From Candidatus Vecturithrix granuli (GTDB taxonomy: Bacteria; Moduliflexota; Moduliflexia; Moduliflexales; Moduliflexaceae): 64,000 bases of DNA. The DNA lies in NCBI GenBank assembly GCA_000739535.1, contig DF820463.1:380195-444194 (forward strand). Direction: 5' to 3'. Shown here one piece after another: positions 8,721 through 32,506 of this stretch (position 1 is its first letter; each line of letters begins with the position of its first letter). The translations under genes and the position numbers were made by a program. The notes beneath the pieces are model-generated. The model searched no databases. It saw nothing but the letters and a program-made list of their open reading frames with translations, and was not told the origin of the DNA.

Positions 8721-11700
8721 ATGGTAAATTTTTTTTGTACATTATTTAATATTCGAAAAGACGAATGGATGAGTGTTCTTTTTCTTTTTACGATAGCGGC
8801 TCTGGTGACAACCGGATCGATCTGGGGGTCAACCATCGCCTATGCCGCTTTTTTAAAACAAGTTGGACTACACTTATTGCCCTGGATTCTGGTGTTGAGC
8901 GCGATCCTCTCTTTTTTCGCCACAGGAATTTATACGGCCTTTGTTGATCGTATTAATCATCAGAAACTCCTGACGGGAATTTATATTTTTGGCGCTGCCA
9001 GCATTGCTTTAGGATTAACCTTACTCTATTTGAAATTTTCTTCCATTGCGTTTCCAATACTGTATCTGCTCTTCCTGGCAAGGGTCGCTATTTCTAATCC
9101 GCATTTTATTACCTATGTGAATAGTTTTTATGATATTCAATCTGCCAAGCGGGTTCTGCCGGTGATTACCGCCGGTTTTCGAATAGGAAATATTCTGGGC
9201 GGATTGACGACCCCGCTATTACTCGCCTGGTTTGCTTCGGATAGGATTATTACGATTTGGCTTTTAACCTATATCCCTATCGTAGGCCTGGTATGGTTAA
9301 TGCCTTACTTTCTCAGAAAAAAAGGAGCATCCGGTAAACCACCTCATCGGAGTACATCGCTTGTGAAGACAGCTTCAAGAAGACCCTATTTTCTTGATCT
9401 CGAAAATATAAAAGAAGGTTTTAGCTATACGATCCGCTCAAATTATCTGCGCTGGATCGCGATCGGAACCCTTTTATCTATGATACTCCTGGCTTTGATT
9501 GAGTATAAAACCATGGAGCTTTTATTACAGGTCTGTGGTACTCAGGAAGAATTAGCAAGCTTTTTAGCATTAGTGACCGGAATCGCCAATATTTTTGCTT
9601 TGCCGATATTGGTCTTTGCCATCAGCCGCCTTATTACCCTTCTCGGTCTGAACAATGTTATCTTATTTTTTCCCCTGATTAATTTGTTTATCTGCGGTGG
9701 GCTTATTTTTGCCCCGGGCACGCTCAGCGCAATAGGAGCGTATCTTGGTTACTCCGTCTTTCCAGGGATTTTTCAATTCCCGATTGATGGTCTGCTTTAC
9801 AATGCCGTGCCATCAAGAATAAAAGGGCGCGCCTGCGCCTTTGTGAATGGACTGGTTGAACCGATCGGCACCTTAATGGGAAGTCTGTTGCTCTTCATTC
9901 CGGTGTTGGTCACAAGCTGGTGGATGATTCCGTTGATTATTGGAATCCTGGCGCTGGCGTATGTTGCCAATACCCTGGTCATCCGCAAACAATATCGTAT
10001 CGCCTTAATCAAAATGTTAGAAGAGGAAGATTTCTCATTTATGCTTCCACAAGAAAGCTCAGATATTACCACAACGGATCCTATTATCCTTGCCCAGTTA
10101 GAAAAAAAGCTCAAAGAGAGTACCAGTCGAGAATTGACCGTGTTTATGGCTCAACTTATCAGCCAAACTGGGAGCCATGAAGCCGGAAAAATTTTGAGAA
10201 GAGCGATAGACAACGCGACAGACGCCAGAATGCGTTCAGCAATTCTTGATGTCATGGCGGCCTCAAATCTGAAGGGTGACATCGTACGCGATACATATAC
10301 CACGTTCCTTGCTGATCCGGATGAACAGGTTCGACAATCAGCCTTTATCGGCCTGGAACAATTGATGGGCATTAACAATAAGCAGTTTGTCGCCCTGGCC
10401 GTCAACATGTTGAACGATTCCAGTACGCAAGTGCGTATCCGCGTCCTTTCTGCACTCAGCCAAACCCGCGATTTTTATCTGATGCCCTCTGCCATGAATG
10501 TGCTGAATGCATTTCTTGCCGATGATGCGCCGAGCCTTCGCGCTCAGGGAGTTCAAATCCTCGGACAAATCGAAGAGGAGGGAGCTTTAGTGAGATTGGC
10601 TGAGTATGTGAATGACCCGGCTGATGAGGTGCGGTTAGAAGCGGCGACAGCCATTGAAGCCCGTATTCACAGCATCAATGGTCATCCATCAGGAACTCTG
10701 TTTGTGGCAAAAATGGAAACCTTGCTCCATGATCCGGTGGAACGTGTGCGTCAGGCCGCTTTGCAAGTGATCGGACATGGCTGCAAACAGAATCGAGATT
10801 TGTATCCAAAACTGATTGAAGCGTTATCTGATAGTAGTCCGCATATCAGAGCAACCGCAGTGAATAACCTGACGCACCTGGGAAAATCAGTCATTTCGGT
10901 TCTTCATCCGAAATTAAACTCGCCTCAACTGGATTTACGTAAAATGGTTGCGGTGGTATTGTGCCGGATTCAGCCGGAAGAATTTGGACCCCTGGTCAAC
11001 ACGAGTATTCAAGGAAACCTCCTGAACATTTATCAGCAGTACGCGATCTCAGACATGCTTGGAAGCTACCAGAGTTCTTTTGGACTCATGATCCTTCAAA
11101 AAGTCCTGAATGATCGCAATCAGCAACTTCTTGATGAGATTTTTTATCTGATGTCTGCGATGCACGATGCTGACGCGGTTCAATTGGTGAACGAATCGCT
11201 GCATAGCAAGGAGTTGAGCCTGAGAGCCAGTGCGATGGAGGTGTTAGAAACAATGACCAACCCCAAAACCGCAAGGCTCATGTCTCCGTTCTTTGATCCG
11301 GAACACCAAGCAGAACAGATCCTCTCGATTGGGAAAGATGTATGGGATTTACCCCAGCCGGACATGGCAAAGACGCTTCGAACGTTTCTCGCCACTCCTG
11401 AAGAACCCTGGTTGCGAACGATTGCTACCTTTGTTTTAGGTGAATTGGGAGCTTCCCTGACTCCATCCCCGCGACCCCCTCAACCTGCTATTCTTCCGGA
11501 TAAGCCCAGGGTCACATTCAAATTATTAGATGAGACAAACAGTGAAAACCGTGAAATCAACAATGGCGAAGGCGCTTCAGAACATATAGGGAGTAGGAGG
11601 AGGACGGCGCGGCGCGCGGTCAAACCCGATCTGTTGAGTCTCCTTTCCGATGAAGCGTCTCCAGAGACCGCGCAAACTTCAGCGCTGCCTGCTGTTGCCC

Positions 11701-12386
11701 CCGAAACGAAAGAATCTGACGCAATAGATCGCCCTTCAGATTCCGCTCCCACGATATTCACGCTACCAGAAATCGAAACGCTGCTAGCCAGTTCTCTTGC
11801 CGATTCGGATGAGGAGGTGCGTTTTACCGCTCAAATCGCCCAACGGATGATCGCAGGGCTCAGGAAAAAAGATCTTCTACAAAAGGAGCATGTCATGCTT
11901 TCAGCTATTGAAAAAGTGATTTTTTTAAAACAGGTATCATTCTTCCAGGGAATGACGATAGAACAACTCAAAGTGCTCGCCAATGTCTGTGAAGAAGAGT
12001 TCTTTCCGACAGATACGCACCTGTTTCATCAGGGAGAATCCGGCGTCAATTTATATGTCATCGTGAATGGTCGTGTGGGGATTGAACAGGAAAAACGCAA
12101 AGGCTCCTTTGTCAGAGTCAATACACTTGAAGCGTATTCCTATCTCGGCGAAGTATCGGTGTTTGATGCCAGTCCGCATACGGCGGATGCTATTGCCATC
12201 CAGGATACTCTGACCCTGCGAATCAGCCGTGAACACCTGTTAGCGTTAGCCCGGCAGCATCCAGAGCTCTCGCTGCAATTAATTAACGCGCTTAATAAAC
12301 AGTTACGCCATGCCTACGATCGTATTGCCGAACTGACTCGTTCCAGACCGCGAGAATTGCACAAATTATTCGATCAATTTGACTGA
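8721..12386 (+). CDS. Large membrane protein: transporter-like domain, HEAT repeats and cNMP-binding-like domain
   Basis: The 1221-residue protein has three parts. Residues 1-430 carry about 12 hydrophobic segments in the pattern of MFS or nucleotide (ATP/ADP) exchange transporters, with charged cytoplasmic loops. Residues about 455-900 are helical HEAT-like repeats (recurring D-x-x-x-x-V-R-x-x-A-x-x-A/L units such as DPDEQVRQSAFIGL, DDAPSLRAQGVQIL and DPVERVRQAALQVI). After a disordered stretch, residues about 1055-1180 match a cyclic-nucleotide-binding fold (HQGESGVNLYVIVNGRV, then LGEVSVFDASPHTADA). The phosphate-binding cassette has the Glu but a His where the ligand-binding Arg is expected, so cAMP binding is doubtful. 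It ends 19 bases before the NRPS start codon. It may be a sensor or scaffold rather than a transporter. Confidence 0.8.
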   Translation: MVNFFCTLFNIRKDEWMSVLFLFTIAALVTTGSIWGSTIAYAAFLKQVGLHLLPWILVLSAILSFFATGIYTAFVDRINHQKLLTGIYIFGAASIALGLTLLYLKFSSIAFPILYLLFLARVAISNPHFITYVNSFYDIQSAKRVLPVITAGFRIGNILGGLTTPLLLAWFASDRIITIWLLTYIPIVGLVWLMPYFLRKKGASGKPPHRSTSLVKTASRRPYFLDLENIKEGFSYTIRSNYLRWIAIGTLLSMILLALIEYKTMELLLQVCGTQEELASFLALVTGIANIFALPILVFAISRLITLLGLNNVILFFPLINLFICGGLIFAPGTLSAIGAYLGYSVFPGIFQFPIDGLLYNAVPSRIKGRACAFVNGLVEPIGTLMGSLLLFIPVLVTSWWMIPLIIGILALAYVANTLVIRKQYRIALIKMLEEEDFSFMLPQESSDITTTDPIILAQLEKKLKESTSRELTVFMAQLISQTGSHEAGKILRRAIDNATDARMRSAILDVMAASNLKGDIVRDTYTTFLADPDEQVRQSAFIGLEQLMGINNKQFVALAVNMLNDSSTQVRIRVLSALSQTRDFYLMPSAMNVLNAFLADDAPSLRAQGVQILGQIEEEGALVRLAEYVNDPADEVRLEAATAIEARIHSINGHPSGTLFVAKMETLLHDPVERVRQAALQVIGHGCKQNRDLYPKLIEALSDSSPHIRATAVNNLTHLGKSVISVLHPKLNSPQLDLRKMVAVVLCRIQPEEFGPLVNTSIQGNLLNIYQQYAISDMLGSYQSSFGLMILQKVLNDRNQQLLDEIFYLMSAMHDADAVQLVNESLHSKELSLRASAMEVLETMTNPKTARLMSPFFDPEHQAEQILSIGKDVWDLPQPDMAKTLRTFLATPEEPWLRTIATFVLGELGASLTPSPRPPQPAILPDKPRVTFKLLDETNSENREINNGEGASEHIGSRRRTARRAVKPDLLSLLSDEASPETAQTSALPAVAPETKESDAIDRPSDSAPTIFTLPEIETLLASSLADSDEEVRFTAQIAQRMIAGLRKKDLLQKEHVMLSAIEKVIFLKQVSFFQGMTIEQLKVLANVCEEEFFPTDTHLFHQGESGVNLYVIVNGRVGIEQEKRKGSFVRVNTLEAYSYLGEVSVFDASPHTADAIAIQDTLTLRISREHLLALARQHPELSLQLINALNKQLRHAYDRIAELTRSRPRELHKLFDQFD

Positions 12387-12405: not shown

Positions 12406-15400
12406 ATGGAGAAGTATGATCAGTTTTGTTGCTTTCTCATCGGAGAAGGTAGCCTTCCGGTCCAATGTGGCAATCTCCTTTTAGAATGCAAACATGGCAT
12501 CTGCGGAATGATTTCGCCGGATGCCACTGTGCGCCAATGGGCCGAGCAGCGCAAGATTCCCTGCTATGCTCCGACTGACGATCTTGTCCATATTTTAGGA
12601 AAACAACCCTTCGATTATCTTTTCAGTATCGTCAATAGCACGGTCATTCCTGCCAATGCCTTGAAATTGCCCCGGAGATATGCCATTAATTATCATAATG
12701 CGCCGCTGCCAAAATACGCCGGCACGAACGTGGCTTCTCATGCCATCATGCACCAGGAAAAATTTCATGGGGTCACATGGCATGTGATGACCGAGAGCGT
12801 GGATGCGGGCGACATCTTAAAACAACACACTTTTCCTATTGGAGCGCATGAAACAGCTCTGAGTTTGAATACTAAATGTTATGAAGCCGCGCTGCACTTA
12901 TTCGGTGAACTTGTTGAGGAACTTGCTTGTGGGCGCATTCACCCGATTCAACAAAATTTAACGGAACGAACGTATTTTGGACGCTATCAGCGTCCCCCTG
13001 CCGCCTGTCTGCTTGATTGGAACCAGGAAGCTCAGGTTATTGATGCAATGGTACGAGGGTTGACCTTTGGGAATTATCCTAATCCTCTGGGGCTGCCCAA
13101 GATGCTTGTTGGAAAGACGTGTCTGGCCGTCGCCGCGTTGGAGGTGACCGATATTCCTTCGCAAAATCCACCCGGAACAATTACAATGATAACCCCAGAG
13201 ATACTCACGATTGCCACTGGCACCTTCGATGTGAACATTTGTCAGATTACAAGACTTGATGGACACCCACTTTCCGTCGTGGAATGCGCAGAACAATTCG
13301 ATCTCCGTGTAAAAGATGTGCTGCCGCTTCCATCAGTTGACCTATCTCGTCGTCTTACTGAAATTCATGCTCAGATTTGCCGACACGAATCTTTTTGGAT
13401 CAAGTGTTTAGAAACTCTCCAGCCAATGCCTCTGCCATATAGTATCCATCTTGCAAATCCCTCAGCAACAGGCCATATCGAGTGTATCACCATGAATGTT
13501 CCGGCTCCGGCTGACAGCGATTTTTTCCTGGCAGCTTGCATAACATATTTTGCACGGCTCAACAATCTTTACCAAGGCGATATTGCCTTTTGTTACCCTG
13601 AATTACGCCAGAAGCTTGACGGCCTAGAGCCATTTTTTGCGATGTACGTGCCTTTTCACCTGCACCTGGATGATACGCAGTCTTTGTGTGTAAACCAACA
13701 AGCCATATACACCGAGATAAGCCGTGTGAAAACCCGTCAAACCTACATGCGCGATCTGGTTGCCCGTTTTCCTTCTCTTCATTCAAAAACAGAACTCCGT
13801 GCTCAGGCAATTTTACCTGTCGCTGTCGAAGTGTTTGAGGGGGAAAATCTGCTATCTGTCTCGTCTGATGCGTATTTGACGCTGAGGATAAAGGGGAATG
13901 GCGCGGTATGCCATTGGATCTATAAGACAGGCTGGTTGAAGCCGGATGACGTGGCCCGGATGGCGCATTATTTTGAAACCTTTGTCTCTGCCCTGCTCGC
14001 GCAGCCGGAACAGCCCTTAGCCTGTGTTCCTTTGTTAACGCCAAAGGAACAACATCAGATTCTTTATGAATGGAATGCAACTCAGGCTGAGTATCCCCAC
14101 ACCTCTTGTCTGCACCAAATCTTTGAGGCGCAAGTCAGAAAAACGCCTGAAGCAATCGCGGTCGTGTATGAAGATGCGCAGCTCACGTATCGGGAATTGA
14201 ATCAGCGCGCCAATCAATTGGCTCATTATCTACGGAAATCAGGGGTAGGCCCCGAAGTGCTGGTTGGCTTGTGCCTGGAACGGTCTTTAGAAATGATCGT
14301 CGGATTGTTGGGCATTTTGAAAGCTGGCGGAGCGTATGTGCCTTTCAATCCTGAGGATCCAAAGGAACGTTTAGCATTCATGCTGGAAGATACGCAGGCA
14401 TCAATACTCCTCACCCAACAAGCACTCTTAGCTCATATACCTGAGCAGAGAGTACAGGTGATCTGTATAGATACACACTGGAAAACAATTTCGCGTGAGA
14501 ACGAGAATGACCCTGAAAATAGCACGTTGCCCCAGAACATAGCGTATGTGATTTACACGTCAGGCTCAACAGGGATCCCAAAAGGCGTGGTGATTCAACA
14601 TCAGTCAGTCCTGAATTTATGGAACGGATTAGCTCATAGTATCTATGCTCAGAAGATCAGGGATTTACTAAGGATTAGCCTGAATGGCCCCTTAACGTTT
14701 GATACATCGGTGAAACAATGGGTTCAACTTCTGAGCGGTCATACCCTCTATGTGATCCCGGCAAGGATGCGATTTCATGGGAATGCGTTGCTCAATTATC
14801 TCCAGCAGCATAAAATTGATGTTTTCGATTGTACTCCCTCTCAGTTAAAGTTACTGCTTGAAGTTGGAATGTCAAAAGATGCCCCTGGTAAGGTACTCGT
14901 TGCCGGAGAAATGATTGAGGACGCAACCTGGCAAGAATTAGCCCCTCAGACAGTAACAACATTTTATAACCTATACGGGCCAACGGAATGTACTGTAGAT
15001 ACAACGGTCTGTCAAATAAGTGCTGTTTCTCACACACCGACGATTGGACGTCCACTTTCGAATATCCAGGTGTATATCCTGGATCCTTCTTGCCAACCTG
15101 TGCCGGTTGGCATCTCTGGTGAGCTTTACATTGGCGGTGTTGGACTGGCGCGAGGATATTTAAAGCGTGCTGACACGACAGCTGAAAAATTTGTGCCGCA
15201 CCCTTTTAGTTCTCAGCCAGGGGCACGTATGTATAAAACCGGCGACCTTGCGCGTTATTTGCCCGATGGAAATATCGAGTTCCTCGGCCGGAGCGATCAC
15301 CAGGTTAAAATTCGTGGTTTTCGAATTGAACCAGGAGAAATTGAAACAATAATATCTGAAAATCCTCTGGTGCAGGATGCTGTTGTGTTGGTACGCGAGG

Positions 15401-15924
15401 ATATCCCTGGCGATAAACGCTTGGTTGCGTATGTTATCCCTGCTCAGGGAGAACATCCAACATCTCGAGAACTACGGAATGCGCTCACAGAAAAATTGCC
15501 TGGCTACATGATTCCAGCGGCGTTTATCCAGGTAGAGCGTTTCCCGCTGACGCCGAATGGCAAGATCGATCGTCGCGCTTTTCCGCCTCCCGATTGGTCT
15601 CAAAGGCAGGGAAAATATGATATAGTTGCTCCGCGTACCTCTACAGAGCGCATTTTGGCCGAGATTTGGACGGAAGTATTAGAGATAGAACACATAAGTA
15701 TTGATGATAATTTTTTTGAGATAGGAGGTCATTCGCTTTCAGGTATGCGTATCCTTTCCCGCTTGCAAGCCATCTTGCACATCTCGTTGCCTCTTCACAC
15801 GCTCTTTGAGTCCCCCACCGTGGAAAGTCTGGCTCGCGCTGTCGACGCCGTGCACTGGGCCATTCAACATCAGCAAGAACCGTCTTCCCCAGCCGATAAT
15901 GAGCGCGAGGTGGTTGTATTATGA
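12406..15924 (+). CDS. NRPS starter module: formyltransferase, partial condensation, adenylation, PCP
   Basis: The 1172-residue protein is taken from ATG 12406 with AGAGGG upstream. A TTG at 12379 would overlap the previous gene. Residues 1-300 are a formyl-tetrahydrofolate-type transferase. The catalytic Asn95-x-His97 and Asp133 keep the 38-residue spacing of methionyl-tRNA formyltransferase, and a C-terminal lobe (LTFGNYPNPLG) follows. Residues about 312-555 look like only the C-lobe of a condensation domain, with no HHxxxDG. Residues about 563-1060 are an adenylation domain (YVIYTSGSTGIPKG, NLYGPTE, YKTGDLARYLPDG, NGKIDRRAF). The PCP attachment Ser1110 is in GGHSL. My hand-read specificity residues, D-T-K-D-L-A-L-V-D, resemble glutamate codes. 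The likely role is loading and N-formylating the first residue of a peptide. It overlaps the next gene by ATGA. Confidence 0.87.
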   Translation: MEKYDQFCCFLIGEGSLPVQCGNLLLECKHGICGMISPDATVRQWAEQRKIPCYAPTDDLVHILGKQPFDYLFSIVNSTVIPANALKLPRRYAINYHNAPLPKYAGTNVASHAIMHQEKFHGVTWHVMTESVDAGDILKQHTFPIGAHETALSLNTKCYEAALHLFGELVEELACGRIHPIQQNLTERTYFGRYQRPPAACLLDWNQEAQVIDAMVRGLTFGNYPNPLGLPKMLVGKTCLAVAALEVTDIPSQNPPGTITMITPEILTIATGTFDVNICQITRLDGHPLSVVECAEQFDLRVKDVLPLPSVDLSRRLTEIHAQICRHESFWIKCLETLQPMPLPYSIHLANPSATGHIECITMNVPAPADSDFFLAACITYFARLNNLYQGDIAFCYPELRQKLDGLEPFFAMYVPFHLHLDDTQSLCVNQQAIYTEISRVKTRQTYMRDLVARFPSLHSKTELRAQAILPVAVEVFEGENLLSVSSDAYLTLRIKGNGAVCHWIYKTGWLKPDDVARMAHYFETFVSALLAQPEQPLACVPLLTPKEQHQILYEWNATQAEYPHTSCLHQIFEAQVRKTPEAIAVVYEDAQLTYRELNQRANQLAHYLRKSGVGPEVLVGLCLERSLEMIVGLLGILKAGGAYVPFNPEDPKERLAFMLEDTQASILLTQQALLAHIPEQRVQVICIDTHWKTISRENENDPENSTLPQNIAYVIYTSGSTGIPKGVVIQHQSVLNLWNGLAHSIYAQKIRDLLRISLNGPLTFDTSVKQWVQLLSGHTLYVIPARMRFHGNALLNYLQQHKIDVFDCTPSQLKLLLEVGMSKDAPGKVLVAGEMIEDATWQELAPQTVTTFYNLYGPTECTVDTTVCQISAVSHTPTIGRPLSNIQVYILDPSCQPVPVGISGELYIGGVGLARGYLKRADTTAEKFVPHPFSSQPGARMYKTGDLARYLPDGNIEFLGRSDHQVKIRGFRIEPGEIETIISENPLVQDAVVLVREDIPGDKRLVAYVIPAQGEHPTSRELRNALTEKLPGYMIPAAFIQVERFPLTPNGKIDRRAFPPPDWSQRQGKYDIVAPRTSTERILAEIWTEVLEIEHISIDDNFFEIGGHSLSGMRILSRLQAILHISLPLHTLFESPTVESLARAVDAVHWAIQHQQEPSSPADNEREVVVL

Positions 15925-18900
15925 GACCTGTTTCTGAGCTGTTAGCAGATCTTCGAAATTCAGGAGTCCACATTCTGGTCAACGGCGAAGAACTGCATCT
16001 AAACGCCCCAAAAGGCAGCCTGACCCCAGACCTGCGCGCTGAAATTGCTCAACGCAAAGCGGACATCCTGGCGTTTTTCCGGGCGGTGGCGAGCGGCGGC
16101 TCGCAAGCATCGTCGCCCATTCCGGTTGTTCCGCGAGATACGCCTCTGCCCCTGTCTTTTGCCCAGCAACGCCTCTGGTTTTTGCACCAATTCGAGGAAG
16201 AACAACGGGGACTGTACAATGTGTCAAAAGCTTTTCAGCTTCACGGTCGGCTTGATATCCAGGCATTGGAACAAAACGTGAGCGCCATTGTGCGTCGTCA
16301 CGAGGTGTTGCGGACAAGCTTTGCCATGCATAACGGCGATCCGGTACAAACAATTCTGACTGACGCCAGAGTGCCCTTCTCCATCCGGGATCTCCAAGAT
16401 CTTTCACCGCAAGAACAGGCTGACAGCGTTCAACACTTCGCGGTGCAAGAAGCGCAACGCCCCTTTGATTTGGAGCAGGGACCCTTACTGCGCGTGCTGC
16501 TGCTGCGTGTCGCGCCAACAGACCATGTTGTAGTGCTGACGATACACCATATTGTGTCAGACGCTTGGTCAACCGGAATCTTGTTTCAAGAACTCGCGCA
16601 CATCTATCAGGCCTGGGTCACAGGAGAACCGGTTTCTTTGCCCGATCTCCCGATCCAGTATGCCGACTTTGCGGTCTGGCAGCGAAATTGGCTTCAGGGT
16701 GATCGCTTAGAGCGATTAACGGCTTATTGGAAAAATCAATTGGAGGCCATCCCTCCGATCCTGGAACTCTCTATAGAACATCCCCGCCCGGCGATTCAGA
16801 GTTTTCAGGGAAAGACTCTGAGATTTTCCCTGAACGCTGCTCTGTGCCAGAAATTAACGACGTTGAGTCAACAAGCAGGAGCGACGCTCTTTATGACGCT
16901 TTTGGCGGCGTTTGTCAGTTTACTTGCGCGTTATAGCGGGAGTAATGATATTGTCGTGGGGTCGCCGATTGCCAATCGCAGACATCCGGCGTTGGAATCG
17001 TTGATCGGCTTTTTTGTGAATACGTTGGTGTTGCGGGTGAATGTTGCGGAGAATCCGACATTTTTAGACGTGCTCCAACAAGTGCGAAAGGTGACTCTGG
17101 AGGCTTACGACCATCAGGATCTCCCTTTTGAACGGTTAGTTGAAGTTTTGCAGCCGGAACGGAACCTCCATTCATCCCCTCTTTTTCAGGTGATGTTTGT
17201 TTTCCAAAATGCGCCTAAAACCCACATGGAACTATCCGGGTTAACCGTAAAATCGCTCGAATTCGATCCTGGAATCGCTAAATTTGATCTCACTCTGGGC
17301 TTTATAGAAACTGAGCATGGAACATTAGACGGAACCATCGAATATGCTACAGATTTGTTCGATGCTGAGACGATCACGCGCATGATCGGCCATTTGCAGA
17401 CAATTCTCACTGGCATTGTCCAGGATCCCCAGAAATATATTTCGGATTTACCTCTGTTAACTCAGGCGGAGCGACAACAAATTTTAGAGCAATGGAACGA
17501 TACTCACGTCAGTTATGCGGAACAAGGCTTCCTTCCTGAGCTTTTTGAAGCGCAAGTGCAGCATACGCCGGACGCAACCGCGGTTGTATTTAACAATACA
17601 CCTTTGACGTATCAGGAACTGAATCAACGCGCTAATCACGTCGCGCACTACCTGAGGAGTTTAGGCGTTGGACCGGAAGTGCTGGTCGGGATTTTTGTTG
17701 AGCGTTCGCTGGAAATGATGGTCGGATTACTGGGGATTTTAAAAGCTGGAGGAGCGTATGTTCCTCTTGATCCGGAATTTCCCCAGGCGCGTTTACAGTT
17801 TATGATAGATAATTCAGGGGTTTCAGTGTTGTTAACCCAAAAGGCTTTAGAAAAGAAACTCCCGTCCAATCAATCCCAAAAGGTGTTTCTTGATGCCGAT
17901 TGGGAAAACATCGCTGTCACAAGCGAAGGCAATCTTGTGCATGGCCTGCACGGAGCGAATCTGGCGTATGTGATTTATACTTCAGGTTCAACAGGTCTTC
18001 CCAAAGGCGTCCAGATTTCGCACAACGCGCTGCGTAACTTCTTGCTCTTCATGCGTCAACAATTGGGGGTTACAGCCAGGGATGCGTTGCTCGCTGTCAC
18101 CACGCTGTCGTTTGATATTGCCGGTTTAGAACTATTTCTGCCCTTGATAGCAGGTGGAACAGTTGTGCTGGCCGACCGGGAGACAACGCTGGATGGCCGT
18201 CGGTTAAGCGAACGATTAGAGCAATGCGGCGTGACGGTGATGCAAGCAACCCCTGCGACGTGGCGGCTCATGTTAGCATCCGGGTGGCGCAACACCGCAG
18301 AATTGCGAGCGTTATGCGGTGGTGAGGCTCTTCCGCGCGACCTGGCCGCGCAGTTGCTTAATGGCGTCGCGTCGTTAAAGAACCTGTATGGCCCCACAGA
18401 AACCACAATATGGTCGTCGTTGCATCAGGTTACCTCTTCAGACCAGACCATTCCGATTGGCAGACCCATAGGCAATACTCAATTTTATATCCTGGACGCT
18501 TCTTTTACCCCTACGCCAGTTGGGGTGGCCGGGGAATTATATATCGGAGGCGCGGGTTTGGCGCGCGGATATTTCAAACGCCCAGACTTGACGGCTGAAA
18601 AATTTGTGCCGCACCCCTTGAGTTCAGTCCCCGGAGAACGATTATATAAAACCGGCGACCAGGTCAGATATTTGCCCGATGGCAATATTGAGTTTCTTGG
18701 GCGTCGCGACGATCAGGTCAAAATTCGAGGTTTCAGAATTGAATTGGGCGAAATTGAGACAGCATTATCCGAATATCCTGCCATACGTCAGGCTGTTGTT
18801 GTTGTGCAAGGAGACGATTTGCAGAGCAAACGTATCGCGGCTTACCTTGTGCCCCAGGATAATTCCGTTTCAATTGAAACGTTGCAGGGATTTCTGAAAG

Positions 18901-21011
18901 AAAAACTGCCTGACTATATGATCCCATCGGTATTTGTGTTTTTAGATGCGCTGCCGTTAACCCCGAATGGGAAAATAGATCGCCGCGCTTTACCATCTCC
19001 TGGCTCAGAGCGGCCCCGATTGCAAGCGCAATATGTTGCCCCGCGTACGCCTGTTGAAGACCTGCTTATCGGTATCTGGAGTGATCTCTTAGAACTTGAG
19101 CACATCGGTATTCATGATGATTTCTTTCAATCAGGCGGGCATTCTTTGCTCGGCACACAGCTTATCTCCAGGATTAGTCAGACATTCGGTATACACCTTC
19201 CTCTACGTGTGTTATTTGATAGACCGACGGTGGCTGGATTAGCAGAACTGATTGCGAACAATGATATCCTCCTGGGACAGGAGACTATGATTCCTCGTGC
19301 GCCCTTCGCATGCGCAAGAGAGTATAAGGAAGGGTTTCCGCTTTCGTACGCACAGCAACGTTTATGGTTCTTTGAACAACTTGAACCGGGAAATGCGGTG
19401 TATAATTTTCCGATGATGCTCCAATTGAATGGGCAGCTTCATATCTCTGCTCTGCAACAAAGTTTGGATGAAGTCGTTCGCCGCCATGAGATCTTGCGTG
19501 CATATTTTGTAACAATTCATGGCGAGCCGCGGCAGCGTATTGCTCCTGTCGCAAGCATTCCTGTACTAATTAGAAATCTGCAACATTTGTCGCCAACAGA
19601 GCAGATAATCGAAGTCCAGCGGCTGGTCGTCGCAGAGGTCCTGCAAGGTTTTGATCTTGCACGAGGGCCGCTATTGCGCGCCAGTTTGCTGCAATTAGCT
19701 GAATCAGAATACATCCTGTTTTTCATGATCCATCATATTGTGTTTGATGAGTGGTCAAAAGGAGTGCTTTTGTGGGAGTTATCAATGCTGTATGAGGCCT
19801 TTGCGGCTGGAAAGCCTTCTCCTTTGGCTGAACTTCCAATCCAATATACGGATTTTGCATGCTGGCAGCGGCAACAGTTGCAGGGAAAGGTCTTTGAGGT
19901 ACAATTGGACTATTGGAAAAAGACACTTGCCGGGAAAATCCCTCTCATGCGGCTTCCGACCGATCGGCCGCGACCGCGTATTCAAACCTTTCAGGGCGCA
20001 ACCTACTCGTTCATGTTTTCTCAATCCCTGATGAAGACGTTGAAAATATTGAGCCAACATGAGAATGTCACCTTATTCATGACGCTGTTGGCAGCCTGGA
20101 AAATCTTATTGTATCACTATACCGGCTTAGAGGATGTATTTGTTGGTACGCTGATTGCGAACAGAAATGTCAAGGAGAGCGAGGATCTGATCGGATTTTT
20201 TGCCAATACCCTCGTATTGCGCACCGATCTTTCCGGGAATCCGACTTTTCGGGAATTACTGAGACGGGTACGAGAAGTGACGTTGGGAGCGTATAGTCAT
20301 CAGGATATGCCCATCGAGAAACTTGTAGAAATTCTGCAGCCAGCGCGCAGTCTGAGGTATCATCCTTTTTTCCAGGTTTTATTTGTGTTTCAAAACACTC
20401 CAATGGAGAAATTAGAACTTCCCGGGGTGAGCGTGACCACATTAAAACCCCGGAACATGACGGCCCTGTTTGATTTGGAATTGTACATCCGTGAGGCAGA
20501 AGAGGGATTACAGGGCAATCTGGAATATAAAACAGACCTTTTTGATGAAGCCACGATGATCCGTTTAATCCAGCATTTTCAGACGATCTTAGAAACAGGC
20601 GTTGCTCATCCTGATTGGCGCATGACAGAATTTCCTCGTGTCTATCCCACTAAACAAGAGCAGAACAATATTCCTGGCATTCTTTCTGAGTCTGACCTGG
20701 GAATTTATCCGATTCCATCCGTTACCGCAAACGCATCTATCTCTTCCCTGTCTTCTCCTGAAAACACGCTATGCGCAATATGGTCTAAAATTTTGGGAGT
20801 AAAAGATGTTGACATTTATGATAATTTTTTTGAATTAGGAGGATATTCCCTGTTAGCTGCGCAGCTTATTTTTCAGGTGAACGCCGTTTTTCACGTTGAA
20901 ATTGCCTTGCGCAGTTTTTTTGAAAATCCAACGGTGGCTGGATTGACGCAAATTATAAGTCGTTTATCTGAGCAAAAAGAGGTTATGACCAGGGTAAGAG
21001 AGAGTTTCTGA
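15921..21011 (+). CDS. NRPS: docking, C-A-PCP, C-PCP
   Basis: The 1696-residue protein starts at ATG 15921 inside the ATGA overlap, so translation is coupled to the first NRPS. Residues 1-55 match the TubC-type N-terminal docking domain (LLADLRNSGVHILVNGEEL, then LTPDLRAEIAQRKADILAFF). C1 spans about 72-500 with H209-H210-IVSD. The A domain spans about 532-1020, and the hand-read code D-I-L-Q-L-G-L-I-W equals a published glycine code as I remember it. PCP1 has Ser1075 in GGHSL. C2 spans about 1150-1590 with HHIVFDEW near 1270. PCP2 has Ser1643 in GGYSL. There is no thioesterase or reductase, and the last module lacks its own A domain, so a partner may load PCP2 or another protein may release the product. 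Confidence 0.88.
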   Translation: MRPVSELLADLRNSGVHILVNGEELHLNAPKGSLTPDLRAEIAQRKADILAFFRAVASGGSQASSPIPVVPRDTPLPLSFAQQRLWFLHQFEEEQRGLYNVSKAFQLHGRLDIQALEQNVSAIVRRHEVLRTSFAMHNGDPVQTILTDARVPFSIRDLQDLSPQEQADSVQHFAVQEAQRPFDLEQGPLLRVLLLRVAPTDHVVVLTIHHIVSDAWSTGILFQELAHIYQAWVTGEPVSLPDLPIQYADFAVWQRNWLQGDRLERLTAYWKNQLEAIPPILELSIEHPRPAIQSFQGKTLRFSLNAALCQKLTTLSQQAGATLFMTLLAAFVSLLARYSGSNDIVVGSPIANRRHPALESLIGFFVNTLVLRVNVAENPTFLDVLQQVRKVTLEAYDHQDLPFERLVEVLQPERNLHSSPLFQVMFVFQNAPKTHMELSGLTVKSLEFDPGIAKFDLTLGFIETEHGTLDGTIEYATDLFDAETITRMIGHLQTILTGIVQDPQKYISDLPLLTQAERQQILEQWNDTHVSYAEQGFLPELFEAQVQHTPDATAVVFNNTPLTYQELNQRANHVAHYLRSLGVGPEVLVGIFVERSLEMMVGLLGILKAGGAYVPLDPEFPQARLQFMIDNSGVSVLLTQKALEKKLPSNQSQKVFLDADWENIAVTSEGNLVHGLHGANLAYVIYTSGSTGLPKGVQISHNALRNFLLFMRQQLGVTARDALLAVTTLSFDIAGLELFLPLIAGGTVVLADRETTLDGRRLSERLEQCGVTVMQATPATWRLMLASGWRNTAELRALCGGEALPRDLAAQLLNGVASLKNLYGPTETTIWSSLHQVTSSDQTIPIGRPIGNTQFYILDASFTPTPVGVAGELYIGGAGLARGYFKRPDLTAEKFVPHPLSSVPGERLYKTGDQVRYLPDGNIEFLGRRDDQVKIRGFRIELGEIETALSEYPAIRQAVVVVQGDDLQSKRIAAYLVPQDNSVSIETLQGFLKEKLPDYMIPSVFVFLDALPLTPNGKIDRRALPSPGSERPRLQAQYVAPRTPVEDLLIGIWSDLLELEHIGIHDDFFQSGGHSLLGTQLISRISQTFGIHLPLRVLFDRPTVAGLAELIANNDILLGQETMIPRAPFACAREYKEGFPLSYAQQRLWFFEQLEPGNAVYNFPMMLQLNGQLHISALQQSLDEVVRRHEILRAYFVTIHGEPRQRIAPVASIPVLIRNLQHLSPTEQIIEVQRLVVAEVLQGFDLARGPLLRASLLQLAESEYILFFMIHHIVFDEWSKGVLLWELSMLYEAFAAGKPSPLAELPIQYTDFACWQRQQLQGKVFEVQLDYWKKTLAGKIPLMRLPTDRPRPRIQTFQGATYSFMFSQSLMKTLKILSQHENVTLFMTLLAAWKILLYHYTGLEDVFVGTLIANRNVKESEDLIGFFANTLVLRTDLSGNPTFRELLRRVREVTLGAYSHQDMPIEKLVEILQPARSLRYHPFFQVLFVFQNTPMEKLELPGVSVTTLKPRNMTALFDLELYIREAEEGLQGNLEYKTDLFDEATMIRLIQHFQTILETGVAHPDWRMTEFPRVYPTKQEQNNIPGILSESDLGIYPIPSVTANASISSLSSPENTLCAIWSKILGVKDVDIYDNFFELGGYSLLAAQLIFQVNAVFHVEIALRSFFENPTVAGLTQIISRLSEQKEVMTRVRESF

Positions 21012-28192: not shown

Positions 28193-31100
28193 ATGGCGGA
28201 AAAATTCCTGCAAGGTACGATTATCACAGGCCCGAACTGGCCGGAACCGGTTGAAATCAAATTGATTGAAGAGACCGGCGATTATGTGCACATTGTCGGA
28301 GCCACGAAGCATTCCCGTCAGCATATTGATCAACTGCTGTCAAAGGCAGAGTTTGCGCAATTGCAGCCTGACCGGGTTCACACGAATTTCAGCGCAGAAG
28401 CCTGGAAAGTTTTTTTAGCCCTGGAAACCCTGCGCTATCGTTTTGCGTCCATGTATGATCCGTTGATCGCCATGAACGCCTCAAAAGTCGATCCCCTGCC
28501 GCATCAGATTGAAGCGGTGTATGGCTGCATCTTAAAAAAGCCGCGCATTCGTTTTCTGATTGCCGACGACCCCGGGGCCGGCAAAACCATTATGGCCGGG
28601 CTGTTAATCAAAGAATTGAAAATCCGCCAGCTCGTTAAGCGCATTCTAATTGTGGCGCCAGGGCATTTGCGCGATCAATGGCGGCGCGAACTGAAAGAGC
28701 GTTTCGAGGAAATCTTCATCCCGGTCGGACGCCAATATCTTGACGCGCTGTTTGGGCAAAATGTCTGGATGCGTGAAAATCAGGTGGTCACGTCGCTGGA
28801 TTTCGCCAAACGCGAGGATATTCTGCCCTCCATTGCTGCGGCGCACTTTGACCTGATCATCGTGGACGAAGCCCACAAAATGAGCGCGTATCGCTACGGC
28901 GAAAAGATTGATAAAACCAGCCGCTACAAGTTAGGCGAAACCCTGTCTAATACGTGCGAACATCTGCTGTTCCTCACCGCCACGCCCCATAAAGGGGACC
29001 CTGAAAATTTTCGCCTGTTTCTGGATTTGATTGAACCGGGGTTCTTTGCGACCAATGAATTGGTGGCGGAATCGGTCAAAAGCAAAGATAACCCCTTGTT
29101 TATCCGCCGCATCAAAGAGGACTTGCAAGATTTTGAGGGCAAACCCCTGTTCCTGCCGCGCCATGTGCACACGGTCGGTTTTCACTGGAAAACCACGTCG
29201 CCTCATGAAGTCGAACTCTATAACGCGCTCTCGCACTATGTGGAAACCCAATACAATAAGGCCCTGGCTAAAGACAAACGCCGCAATATCGCCTTTGCGC
29301 TGGTGATCTTGCAGCGCCGCCTGGCTTCCAGCACGTACGCGCTGCTGAAATCCCTGGAACGGCGTAAAAAACGTCTGGAAGAATACCTGCAAGGCGCGGC
29401 CGGCAATCAAAAATTCTCGGAGAATGCGTTTGATTTCGAAAGTGTGGAGGATATGAGCGAAGAAGAACGCTGGCGCGAGGAAGAAATCTGGGAAACCCTG
29501 AGCGTCGCGGAGAACCGCGCAGAACTGGAAAAAGAAATCAGGATCCTTGCCAAACTGATCGAGCAGGCCGCAGCCATCATTCAACAGGAAGAGGAGATCA
29601 AACTCAAGGAATTCAAGCGCGCGTTGCAAGAGCTTTCCGCAAAATATCAGGACCCACAGGATAAGAAAATTTTAGTGTTCACCGAGTCGCGGGATACGCT
29701 GGATTATCTGGAAAACAAGATTCGCGCCTGGGGCTACCGCACCAATACCATTCACGGCGGCATGAAACTGGAAGAACGGATCAAAGCCGAGGGGATTTTT
29801 AAGCACGAGACCGATGTGCTGATTGCGACTGAAGCGGCCGGCGAAGGCATTAATTTGCAGTTCTGCCATCTCATGCTGAATTATGACATCCCCTGGAATC
29901 CGAATCGCCTGGAGCAGCGCATGGGGCGCATTCATCGCTACGGACAACAGAAAGAAGTGTTTGTGTTTAATTTAGTCGCGCTTGACACCCGCGAAGGCAT
30001 GGTGCTGCACACGTTGTTTGAGAAACTGGATGAAATTCGCAATGCCATGGGCAGCGATAAAGTGTTTGACGTGCTGGATGAGGTGCTCTATCAGCAAAAC
30101 CTGGCGCAGTTAATGCTGGAAGCGGCCGCCCACGCCCGCAGCATGGAGGACATCCTGCAAGAACTCGACATCAAGGTGGATGAGGAATACATTCAGCGCA
30201 TCAAAGAAAATTTAGGCGAAAGCCTCGCCACTCGCTACATTGATTACACGCGCATCAAAGCCATGGCGCAGATTGCCCGCGAACACCGTCTGATCCCGGA
30301 ATACACCGAGAGCTTTTTCAAAAAAGCGCTGTTGAAAGCCGGGGGGAAATTCAGAAAACGCAAAGACGGGTTTCTGGCAATTGAATCCATTCCTTTCGAG
30401 ATTCGCGCCCTGGCTGAGGATGACACGTTTAAAAAAGCTTACGGCGACCTGCTGCGACGTTATCCCAAAGCCACGTTTGACAAAGAGATTGCGTTTAAAC
30501 ATCAGGACGCCGAATTTCTCTGTTTTGGGCATCCGTTATTTGAGGCGATGATGCTCTACATTGAACAGACATGCTCTGACGCGCTGCTCACAGGCGCAAC
30601 ATTTCTTGATCCCGACGGCCTGCTTGACGGCTATATCGTGTTTTATGAAGGTGAAATTCGAGACGGCATCGGCAGCGCGGCCGGCAAACGCCTGTTCAGC
30701 TTTTACGTGCAGGGTCAACAGGTAAAACCTTTTCCGGCGGCCGGGATCTGGGATTTAGCTGAAGCCAGCCATCTTTTACCCACCCCTTGCCCCTCCCAGG
30801 AGGGAAACAAGAGCGAATTCCCCTCCTGGGAGGGGCAAGGGGTGGGTATTGAACAGATCACCTCAATTTCCAACACGCAGGCTATCAACGCATTGGAAAA
30901 TTATAAACAAGAACTGCTGCAAGAACGCCAGCGCCAGGCAGCAATCAAAGAAAAATACGGCGTGCAATCCCTTGAGTATCTGGACTGGAAATTGGACGGG
31001 GAATTGATCGCCTTGTTGGGCCGTCAAGAACAGGGGGAAAATGTCGATTTGGTAATTCGCAACAAGCAAGAACGCAAAGCCAGCTATGGGAAGGCATTAA

Positions 31101-31594
31101 ATGAGTTGAAAGCGCAGATTGGCAAAGAAAAAAGCTTGACGATGAGCATGCCCCGCTTTAAAGGCATCATTCGGGTAGTCCCTGCAACCCTGGTTGAACC
31201 GGACATGCGCAGCGATCCTGAAGTGGAACGCATCGGCATGGAAATCAGCATGGCGTATGAACAACAGCAGCAGCGCATCCCTGAAGATGTGGCTGACCAG
31301 AACCTGGGCTTTGACATTCGCTCCCGGGACCCAAAAACAAAGGACATCCGCTATATCGAGGTGAAAGCGCGTTCAACCAGGGCCGCGGTAGCCTTAACGC
31401 AGAATGAATGGTTCAAGGCTAAACAATTCAAAGACGCTTATTATCTGTATGTCGTGTTAAATACCGCCGCCGAGCCGAAACTCTACATTATTCAGAATCC
31501 GGCGGAAAACGTGAACGCTGAAGAGAAAATCGAAGTCGTGCGCTACATTATTCCATTGACACAAATTCAGGAAAAAGGGAAACTCAATAATTAA
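28193..31594 (+). CDS. SNF2-like helicase with C-terminal DUF3883 (DISARM DrmD-like)
   Basis: The 1133-residue protein starts at ATG 28193 with AAGGGGGAA upstream. Superfamily 2 motifs are clear: Walker A DDPGAGKT (Lys131), D225EAH, the TATPHKGDP motif and motif VI QRMGRIHRYGQ. A charged coiled coil lies between the two RecA lobes. The C-terminal ~110 residues match DUF3883 (LGFDIRSRDPKT, then YIEVKARS), a domain with the E-x-K pattern of nuclease-like folds that is often fused to defence helicases. A palindrome adds 24 in-frame residues near 862-885. It is the first gene of a set with the DUF1156 methyltransferase and DUF499 ATPase, a neighbourhood related to DISARM. Its likely role is DNA translocation in phage defence (inference). 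Confidence 0.85.
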   Translation: MAEKFLQGTIITGPNWPEPVEIKLIEETGDYVHIVGATKHSRQHIDQLLSKAEFAQLQPDRVHTNFSAEAWKVFLALETLRYRFASMYDPLIAMNASKVDPLPHQIEAVYGCILKKPRIRFLIADDPGAGKTIMAGLLIKELKIRQLVKRILIVAPGHLRDQWRRELKERFEEIFIPVGRQYLDALFGQNVWMRENQVVTSLDFAKREDILPSIAAAHFDLIIVDEAHKMSAYRYGEKIDKTSRYKLGETLSNTCEHLLFLTATPHKGDPENFRLFLDLIEPGFFATNELVAESVKSKDNPLFIRRIKEDLQDFEGKPLFLPRHVHTVGFHWKTTSPHEVELYNALSHYVETQYNKALAKDKRRNIAFALVILQRRLASSTYALLKSLERRKKRLEEYLQGAAGNQKFSENAFDFESVEDMSEEERWREEEIWETLSVAENRAELEKEIRILAKLIEQAAAIIQQEEEIKLKEFKRALQELSAKYQDPQDKKILVFTESRDTLDYLENKIRAWGYRTNTIHGGMKLEERIKAEGIFKHETDVLIATEAAGEGINLQFCHLMLNYDIPWNPNRLEQRMGRIHRYGQQKEVFVFNLVALDTREGMVLHTLFEKLDEIRNAMGSDKVFDVLDEVLYQQNLAQLMLEAAAHARSMEDILQELDIKVDEEYIQRIKENLGESLATRYIDYTRIKAMAQIAREHRLIPEYTESFFKKALLKAGGKFRKRKDGFLAIESIPFEIRALAEDDTFKKAYGDLLRRYPKATFDKEIAFKHQDAEFLCFGHPLFEAMMLYIEQTCSDALLTGATFLDPDGLLDGYIVFYEGEIRDGIGSAAGKRLFSFYVQGQQVKPFPAAGIWDLAEASHLLPTPCPSQEGNKSEFPSWEGQGVGIEQITSISNTQAINALENYKQELLQERQRQAAIKEKYGVQSLEYLDWKLDGELIALLGRQEQGENVDLVIRNKQERKASYGKALNELKAQIGKEKSLTMSMPRFKGIIRVVPATLVEPDMRSDPEVERIGMEISMAYEQQQQRIPEDVADQNLGFDIRSRDPKTKDIRYIEVKARSTRAAVALTQNEWFKAKQFKDAYYLYVVLNTAAEPKLYIIQNPAENVNAEEKIEVVRYIIPLTQIQEKGKLNN
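30777..30848. repeat. 72-bp protein-coding palindrome in the helicase gene
   Basis: TACCCACCCCTTGCCCCTCC opens the element, and its reverse complement closes it. The arms are about 28 bases around a 15-base centre. The length is exactly 24 codons, read through in frame as a Pro/Ser/Glu/Gly-rich segment (PTPCPSQEGN, then FPSWEGQGVG). It resembles Rickettsia palindromic elements in behaviour. Confidence 0.8.
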
Positions 31595-31597
31595 GTC

Positions 31598-31795
31598 ATG
31601 TTACGCAGAGATTCTTTACCGCGTAGCGGTTACAGTATTGTAGAATCTGTGGCGTCCGCGGAATTTCCTACCGCGTAGCGGTTGCAGAAAGAACGCTCCA
31701 AGACTGCAACTGCTACGCGGTAAGAGAGCTCGGAGACATCCCTTATGCTACAATACTCCAATCGCTACGCGGTAAAGAGATGGACTGCGTAACAT
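31598..31795. repeat. Nested palindrome built on TACCGCGTAGCGGTT
   Basis: Outer arms run from ATGTTACGCA (31598) to TGCGTAACAT (ending 31795), and both continue for about 45 bases. Inside lies a second inverted pair, CTACCGCGTAGCGGTTGCAG (31668-31687) against CTGCAACTGCTACGCGGTAA (31704-31723). The arm motif therefore occurs four times. It fills the 272-base gap between the helicase and the CopG-like gene. It has no coding potential I would defend. Confidence 0.7.
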
Positions 31796-31866
31796 GAGTT
31801 ACAAGTCAACCAAAGAAGCTTTAATTCTCAGCGCACGCGATATGGCTGAGAAGGAGAGAACATATT

Positions 31867-32136
31867 ATGGCAAAAAAGTCTAAACAGCCGTTTTTAGGAC
31901 AGGGATCGCTTGAGGCCTTCGTCGCATATTTTGATTCGCATGATTTAGGCGACGAACTTGATGGGCTGCCAGAAGTCCGCTTTGATGTAGATATCCAGGC
32001 TCGCAAGCATCTTGTGACGCTCGACGAGGACATCGCTGAACAAGTCGAAAAAATTGCGATCAGACAGCATATTCCTTCGGAAGTGCTGATTAATGCCTGG
32101 TTACGGGAAAAAATTGCGCGTATGATGACAGCATAA
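31867..32136 (+). CDS. CopG-like (ribbon-helix-helix) antitoxin-type protein, orphan
   Basis: The 89-residue protein starts at ATG 31867 with GAAGGAGAG upstream. The C-terminal half (KHLVTLDEDIAEQVEKIAIRQ, then SEVLINAWLREKIA) has the beta-helix-helix pattern of CopG-type DNA-binding antitoxins, and the N-terminal half would contact a toxin. No toxin gene is adjacent. The preceding gap is filled by a repeat. It is possibly an antitoxin left after loss of its partner, or an autonomous regulator of the island. Confidence 0.62.
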   Translation: MAKKSKQPFLGQGSLEAFVAYFDSHDLGDELDGLPEVRFDVDIQARKHLVTLDEDIAEQVEKIAIRQHIPSEVLINAWLREKIARMMTA

Positions 32137-32200
32137 TACTCGTTCTGCTCTATCTCAACAAGCTTCGTTTCGGTCTCGGTGAAAAAGGAGAGAGGACGCG

Positions 32201-32491
32201 ATGACAATAGCAGAAATTATCAGGATTTTACAATCAGCGAAGCTCGATTCGCTGCGACAGTATAAAGCCGATTTAAAAGGTATTTTCGGTTCATATTCAA
32301 GAGAGGAACAGCGCAAAGACAGCGACGTTGATATTTTGGTAGAGTTCCAGCCTGGCGCGACATTATTCGATTTGTCAGGATTGCGAGATTTTTTAGAGCA
32401 AAAGCTCAAGATAAAAGTAGATATTGTGTCCAGCAGAGCCTTGAAAGAAGAGACAAAACCCTTTATTCATCACGATCTGATGCCAATATGA
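32201..32491 (+). CDS. MNT-type nucleotidyltransferase (antitoxin-like)
   Basis: The 96-residue protein has the minimal nucleotidyltransferase motif GSYSREEQRKDSDVDILVEF (G-S-x10-D-x-D) at residues 30-49 and a later acidic VDIVSS. MntA-type proteins AMPylate and neutralise HEPN RNase toxins. No HEPN gene sits beside this copy. It lies 15 bases before the methyltransferase on the same strand. A second MNT gene lies at 35477. Confidence 0.8.
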   Translation: MTIAEIIRILQSAKLDSLRQYKADLKGIFGSYSREEQRKDSDVDILVEFQPGATLFDLSGLRDFLEQKLKIKVDIVSSRALKEETKPFIHHDLMPI

Positions 32492-32506
32492 AAAGAGAAA
32501 AAAATC

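Follow-up and report, generated by a model that had tools for sequence, protein, structure and literature searches.

Our results show that a gene in the window, a stretch of 64,000 nucleotides from Candidatus Vecturithrix granuli (contig DF820463.1), joins a complete formyltransferase (F) to the C-terminal lobe of a condensation (C) domain, ahead of an adenylation (A) domain and a peptidyl carrier protein (PCP). Judged from its distribution over sequenced genomes, this combination of F and 'half C' is a widespread and conserved building block, not a one-off relic. We consider it probable that the half C is a non-catalytic adaptor, a C-lobe that seats the formyltransferase on the A domain.

The gene for this F-lobe-A-PCP protein spans positions 12406-15924 and encodes a product of 1172 residues, whose parts are listed in Table 1. 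Its mechanically called ORF opens at a TTG, 27 bases before the ATG at 12406, the position that the earlier note had correctly taken as the start. The A domain of the window protein is continuous and has no Bac_luciferase match in Pfam. We take its code, DTKDLALVD(K), to be Glu-like. In the second NRPS of the operon, both C domains keep HHxxxD (HHIVSDA and HHIVFDE), and the A domain has a Gly-like code, DILQLGLIW. This second protein terminates in C-T, without an A domain for that C-T and without a thioesterase. Just 5' of the F gene, a gene at 8721-12386 encodes a protein whose N-terminal region is hydrophobic and which also has HEAT repeats and a cyclic-nucleotide-binding domain; the stop of this gene lies within 20 bases of the start of the F gene.

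Table 1. Features of the F-lobe-A-PCP protein and its partner NRPS, in window positions.
Feature	Position	Strand	Basis
Formyltransferase catalytic domain (F_N), residues 1-180, N95/H97/D133	12406..12945	+	Pfam PF00551, 58.2 bits; ArnA/FMT relatives in PDB
Formyltransferase C-terminal domain (F_C), ~residues 190-300	12973..13305	+	PF02911, 34.4 bits, cut-off 21.1; ArnA alignment to residue 286
C-lobe without N-lobe ('half C'), ~residues 311-560, ending in C-A linker (LPLLTPKEQ..EWNAT type)	13336..14085	+	Profile A3, AF2, structural alignment
Half C family motif D450-x-x-x-R454-x-P456-x-L458	13753..13779	+	Row comparison with full C domains
Adenylation core, code DTKDLALVD(K)	14092..15195	+	Pfam PF00501, 277.7 bits
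Adenylation C-terminal subdomain	15316..15591	+	Pfam PF13193; own scan
Peptidyl carrier protein, GGHSL at residue 1107	15631..15855	+	Pfam PF00550
Second NRPS of operon, TubC_N-C-A-T-C-T	15921..21011	+	Pfam

The formyltransferase looks active, in line with the earlier note: N95, H97 and D133 (counted from the ATG) are present and conserved in relatives, and the domain is recognized by Pfam. It is of the two-domain type, in which Formyl_trans_N is followed by Formyl_trans_C, both above the Pfam cut-off; this second domain was absent from the earlier note. Among the PDB matches of the window F, ArnA reaches 71.7 bits over residues 51-286, whereas LgrA reaches 29-30 bits over residues 75-195 only. 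By these alignments, the window F is nearer to ArnA/FMT than to LgrA.

LgrA, the linear gramicidin synthetase (F-A-T; PDB 5es5-5es9, 5jnf, 6ulz), resembles the window protein in having a formyltransferase before an A-T starter. However, the direct F-A junction of the LgrA type is absent in the window protein, where F_C and the C-lobe intervene. The F-A chain of LgrA (5es6) has 583 residues, too few to accommodate F_C or a C-lobe, whereas the window protein takes 964 residues to the same point. The earlier note was right that the half C distinguishes the window protein from LgrA, where F leads straight into A.

The half C would be overlooked by routine annotation, because its Pfam score is far under the cut-off. 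The Condensation model matches only with its last ~64 columns (391-456), at 14-15.6 bits versus a cut-off of 30.6. In a Legionella lytica relative, the same stretch scores above the cut-off, over Condensation columns 194-451 of 456. Profile A3, which was built from 66 relatives and run against the C domains of the PDB, aligned to C-lobes alone, with McyB as best match (E 4.7e-28), and several of its alignments span the whole lobe (e.g. 7c1k 190-434). The AlphaFold (AF2) model of the half C has a pLDDT of 92.5 and a pTM of 0.88. This model gave 141 matches in the PDB at E <= 0.001, and the best 50 of the 141 are NRPS condensation-type domains. Its best structural alignment is to EntF 175-442 (Z 19.1, 3.0 Å, 230 residues). 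The structural matches begin at the lobe boundary, with no counterpart of the N-lobe or of HHxxxDG. The idea that the residues between F and A form a C-lobe without its HHxxxDG half is therefore borne out by the profile E-value, the pLDDT and the Z-score to the C-lobe of EntF. The profile search and AlphaFold check that had been proposed for this segment both return a C-lobe fold, at ~residues 311-560.

The single window protein, used as query against the genome contigs, found no relatives, and the half C alone gave one weak match (G031, E 2.2e-5) in 58 other genomes. A search for other F-(half C)-A proteins had been suggested, and a profile scan of the genome contigs recovered at least 579 relatives of F + half C, from many phyla. 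Among the four genomes of the window's phylum that were searched, full-length F + half C occurs only in the window's own genome. In a tblastn search of F + half C against plasmids, 66 of the 397 matching records have at least 80% query coverage; at E 1e-20 this is 65 of 90. F_C and the lobe are found in 80 of 80 loci, the best 80 of the at least 579 relatives, a count biased to complete matches since the full F-lobe query matched these loci best. An A domain is seen in 76 of the 80; of the four others, one frame ends (L069) and three contigs end (L100, L106, L111). A luciferase-like monooxygenase lies inside the A domain in 32 of these 80 genome loci.

Because the set of 80 loci is biased, searches with the formyltransferase alone are the fair test. 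In these searches, the lobe was present at 67 of 68 places, and the 68th (L174) leaves its contig after F_C. The phylum of G031 (195 genomes) contains 25 family places, all with at least 192 bits while the next match has 88; the lobe is detected by HMM at 20 of the 25, and a degraded lobe is found at the other five (hhalign probability 95.8). The phylum of G050 (339 genomes) gave 12 matches, two of which are stand-alone frames (254 and 304 residues), and the lobe is present in the other 10 of 10. In the order of G730 (291 genomes), 42 places were found, of which nine had already been sampled, and 32 of the 33 new ones have the lobe. The search with F alone gave no NRPS match in the phylum of G055 (348 genomes), only one stand-alone frame of 292 residues, and found nothing in two further sets of three genomes each.

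Some loci are built differently. Five giant ORFs of ~14,200 residues (L134-L138) have a very degraded half C that is separated from A. In L134, the one giant frame that was examined, the degraded lobe is followed by a methyltransferase domain and then by A. Direct contact between lobe and A is thus not universal, because these five ORFs interpose sequence before A. At L146 and L168, ~420-440 residues matching no identified domain lie between half C and A. L143 has a stop codon within the half C, with the remainder in the same frame downstream, which indicates either a disrupted gene or an error in the sequence. L183, L184 and L185 (980-990 residues) lack F_C; their F_N is followed by a half C of reduced length, then by A and PCP, and their tree neighbours are monooxygenase-type rows. 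In L031, on a Sinorhizobium medicae plasmid (from 8917), F_N runs straight into a full C domain, both F_C and half C being absent. The same short F match is given by several Sinorhizobium plasmids.

The predicted geometry of lobe and A was compared with the PDB, using a model of F, lobe and A (residues 1-1066, 26 sequences, pLDDT 88.3, pTM 0.78). Residues 310-1010 of the model fit McyB C1A1 (8hlk) as one body (642 residues, 3.0 Å, Z 56.2), and residues 310-1064 fit EntF (5ja1) over 723 residues at 2.6 Å. Lobe and A together also fit Txo1 (635-641 residues, 3.2-3.4 Å) and SrfA-C (2vsq; 633 residues, 3.6 Å). In contrast, the F-A constructs of LgrA superpose on the model at 20-22 Å only, over 559-668 residues (5es6: 20.6 Å over 561). 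These fits suggest that the lobe:A geometry of C-A pairs is kept, whereas F is sited differently from LgrA. In the model, the C-lobe fold is packed against A with the same arrangement as in these C-A di-domains, but the window protein has no N-lobe and no HHxxxDG, and a formyltransferase lies upstream instead. The model gives support rather than proof, because C-A structures sit in the AlphaFold training.

For the window protein, we infer the following course. The complete F_N and F_C are joined to a C-lobe that would pack on the N-terminal subdomain of A like an ordinary C-A pair, and F would occupy the place of the N-lobe on the C:A platform. The A domain, with its Glu-like code, would load an amino acid onto the PCP. 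The C-terminal subdomain of A and the PCP would then swing, and the PCP would present the aminoacyl group to F, which would formylate its free amine from formyl-tetrahydrofolate. The resulting N-formyl-aminoacyl-PCP would pass to the TubC_N-C-A-T-C-T protein, which would add a Gly-like residue. F and lobe would be inherited as one cassette and set before A domains of many specificities; the codes of the A domains behind the cassette vary widely. Two observations may speak against an adaptor. Conservation is lower in the lobe than in any other domain of the unit, which would hold for a decaying relic too, and in the five giant ORFs the degraded lobe is separated from A.

An alternative explanation might be that the lobe participates actively, by keeping the acceptor-side PCP-binding face, with a D...R...P motif that serves F as docking site for the aminoacyl-PCP. 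Within the half C, the residues that vary least, D450, R454 and P456, occupy the place of the HQDxPFE region in ordinary C domains, and the link to P456 is shorter than in those domains. D450 is present in 91 of 94 half C rows versus 0 of 30 full C domains, and R454 in 93 of 94 versus 15 of 30, where the 94 rows include L031_H, whose lobe really belongs to a full C domain. Moreover, it is mainly an RYPDL-type motif that still stands out in the degraded lobes of the giant ORFs, and its survival away from A suggests a function directed at F or PCP. Yet, the lobe:A platform is predicted to be intact, and a docking role overlaps with that of an adaptor. We regard it as possible but rather unlikely that docking is what the lobe does.

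The lobe may also be a fossil, a functionless and harmless remnant of a C domain that lost its N-lobe, or had it replaced, when the formyltransferase arrived. In its favour, the half C is without N-lobe and HHxxxDG, and the stretch that lies ahead of the C7-like region in ordinary C domains is gone. The lobe is also the domain of the unit with the lowest identity: across 26 F-lobe-A sequences, pairwise identity averages 0.25 for the lobe, compared to 0.43 for F_N, 0.35 for F_C, 0.39 for the A core and 0.46 for the A subdomain. At 5 of the 25 places in the phylum of G031, it is strongly decayed. However, this fastest-diverging domain is not, on the sequence evidence, free to decay. Its divergence in the same 26 sequences follows that of F_C (r 0.91) and F_N (0.87) more closely than that of the A core (0.83). 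In 15 pairs from six related Bradyrhizobium loci, dN/dS of the lobe is 0.22-0.39, which is a sign of purifying selection in this one group. Furthermore, the lobe is retained at nearly all places found with F alone, keeps its family-specific residues, and has been carried into modules that already possess an intact C domain. A fossil is accordingly an improbable explanation.

The earlier note had described the half C as the fossil of a C domain of which the N-lobe was replaced by the formyltransferase. An origin through loss of the N-lobe fits, as the half C begins where the C-lobe of a C domain does and a single branch of the lobe tree sets the F-linked lobes apart (1 change, SH-aLRT 96). The term 'fossil' is not supported, in view of the 67 of 68 places, the lobe's own residues, the dN/dS values and the intact-C modules. 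The tree contains 71 F-linked lobes, 30 ordinary C-lobes and one F-free lobe; 23 of the 95 rows gathered were omitted from it, namely L031 and others that were mostly near-relatives from rhizobia, near-duplicates or short. With long branches present, its topology is compatible with a single recruitment of the F-linked lobes but no proof of it. The natural reading is that the lobe originated by loss of the N-lobe, with F either as direct replacement or placed upstream before the later loss.

The window's genome has a second C-lobe without N-lobe, in a frame that lacks a formyltransferase (L113; G000:C20:829000-848500, minus strand). This frame of 2088 residues consists of a weak A-like start, a PCP, a divergent full C domain (770-1174, DHLAIDG), the C-lobe (1180-1449), A and PCP. 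Since its F-free lobe clusters with ordinary C domains in the lobe tree, a C-lobe seems to have been kept beside A under other upstream parts at least twice, separately. We also considered A-domain swapping with a break at the lobe/A junction. This idea was dropped, because sliding identities place the divergent stretch within the A core (~residues 640-880 in one Bradyrhizobium pair and 720-880 in three others).

Finally, although Pfam alone gives only a sub-threshold match, the chance that the half C is an artefact is negligible, because a single continuous open frame and the same architecture in hundreds of genomes (at least 579 relatives) rule out an assembly gap hiding a full C domain, and profile, predicted fold and structural alignments all give a C-lobe, which rules out an unrelated domain resembling one.

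In the window protein, F holds the position of an initiation module, whereas in 12 relatives F-lobe-A directly follows a complete C domain (L035, L145, L155-L161, L163, L166, L171). In L035 and L145, the two that were inspected by eye, the upstream C domain keeps HHxxxDG and F begins a few residues after its end. The 12 loci with an intact C domain imply that the half C is not simply the residue of the module's own C domain, and that F and lobe move together. In L059, a single frame encodes C-A-T-F-half C-A-T, and the stretch from its first T to its second A lacks a full C domain.

These mid-line modules differ in their A-domain codes from starters, i.e., modules without upstream C or T. Glu239-type D.E..G codes (DAEDIGTVV and similar) occur in 12 of 12 mid-line modules (11 readable C-F-lobe-A modules and L059) but in only 5 of 69 starters, a set in which L031 is counted and the same strain can recur among the 80 loci and the other genomes. 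In view of these repeats, we also report unique codes, of which 8 of 8 mid-line and 4 of 44 starter codes have Glu239 (Fisher p 6.6e-7, kinship ignored). The mid-line modules do not form one clade, because their label needs five changes on the tree, at least four of them across well supported branches, with most rows being close kin. This tree covers 106 of 158 rows, including L031; monooxygenase rows were thinned to one in four, and rows of <380 residues and rows sharing their first 120 residues were dropped.

In the literature, codes with Glu239 are assigned to Lys (e.g. DGEDHGTVVK), Orn and Arg, and the same paper gives DILQLGMIWK as Gly code and DLYNLSLIWK as Cys code, in agreement with our readings (PMC12283262). 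By this comparison, the D.E..G codes are likelier to specify a basic residue, most like Lys, with Arg or Orn as alternatives. In the C-F-lobe-A modules the side-chain amine would be the likelier target, because the upstream C domain could not acylate an alpha amine that already carries a formyl group. Possibly, then, F + C-lobe acts in elongation modules as a portable tailoring cassette between an intact C domain and A, and formylates a basic residue (most like Lys) at its side-chain amine; we offer this as a tentative suggestion, somewhat more doubtful than its opposite. If true, cis-acting F domains would be neither rare nor limited to N-termini, and a class of lysine-formylated peptides would be predictable from sequence. 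This would differ from the picture in the accessible portion of a 2022 review, where F domains are very scarce, known from three peptides, and always located in the initiation module, acting on the N-terminal amino acid only (PMC8949500).

We found no description of F followed by a half C domain in the literature searched, which has most subscription journals outside its coverage. The MupA/Atu3671 proteins, annotated in plasmid records as FMN-dependent luciferase-like monooxygenase, have the same F_N-F_C-half C start as the window protein, but with a luciferase-like monooxygenase inserted in A, which the window protein does not have. The fungal FmqC, as presented in the available sections of its source, likewise retains a truncated and presumably inactive C domain (C*) in an NRPS; unlike the window case, it concerns one fungal pathway and has no formyltransferase (PMC10212144). 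Formyltransferase loading modules are known from sponge symbionts: in the available part of that report, the calyxamide/discodermin clusters of Entotheonella have Fmt in an NRPS loading module, as in the window (PMC12858407).

Our results thus describe an F lineage with its own C-lobe in hundreds of genomes of many phyla, which is easily missed, its lobe being below the Pfam cut-off in the window. If the lobe is an adaptor, it would offer a ready design for linking foreign catalytic domains to A domains.

Elsewhere in the window, at 28193-35053, a helicase with a NO VEIN C-terminal domain lies beside a DUF1156 DNA-methylase-like protein, and this pair may be a phage-defence island. A match to the Acido-Lenti-1 RNA family is located at 1877-1922 on the + strand (40.1 bits, cut-off 37).
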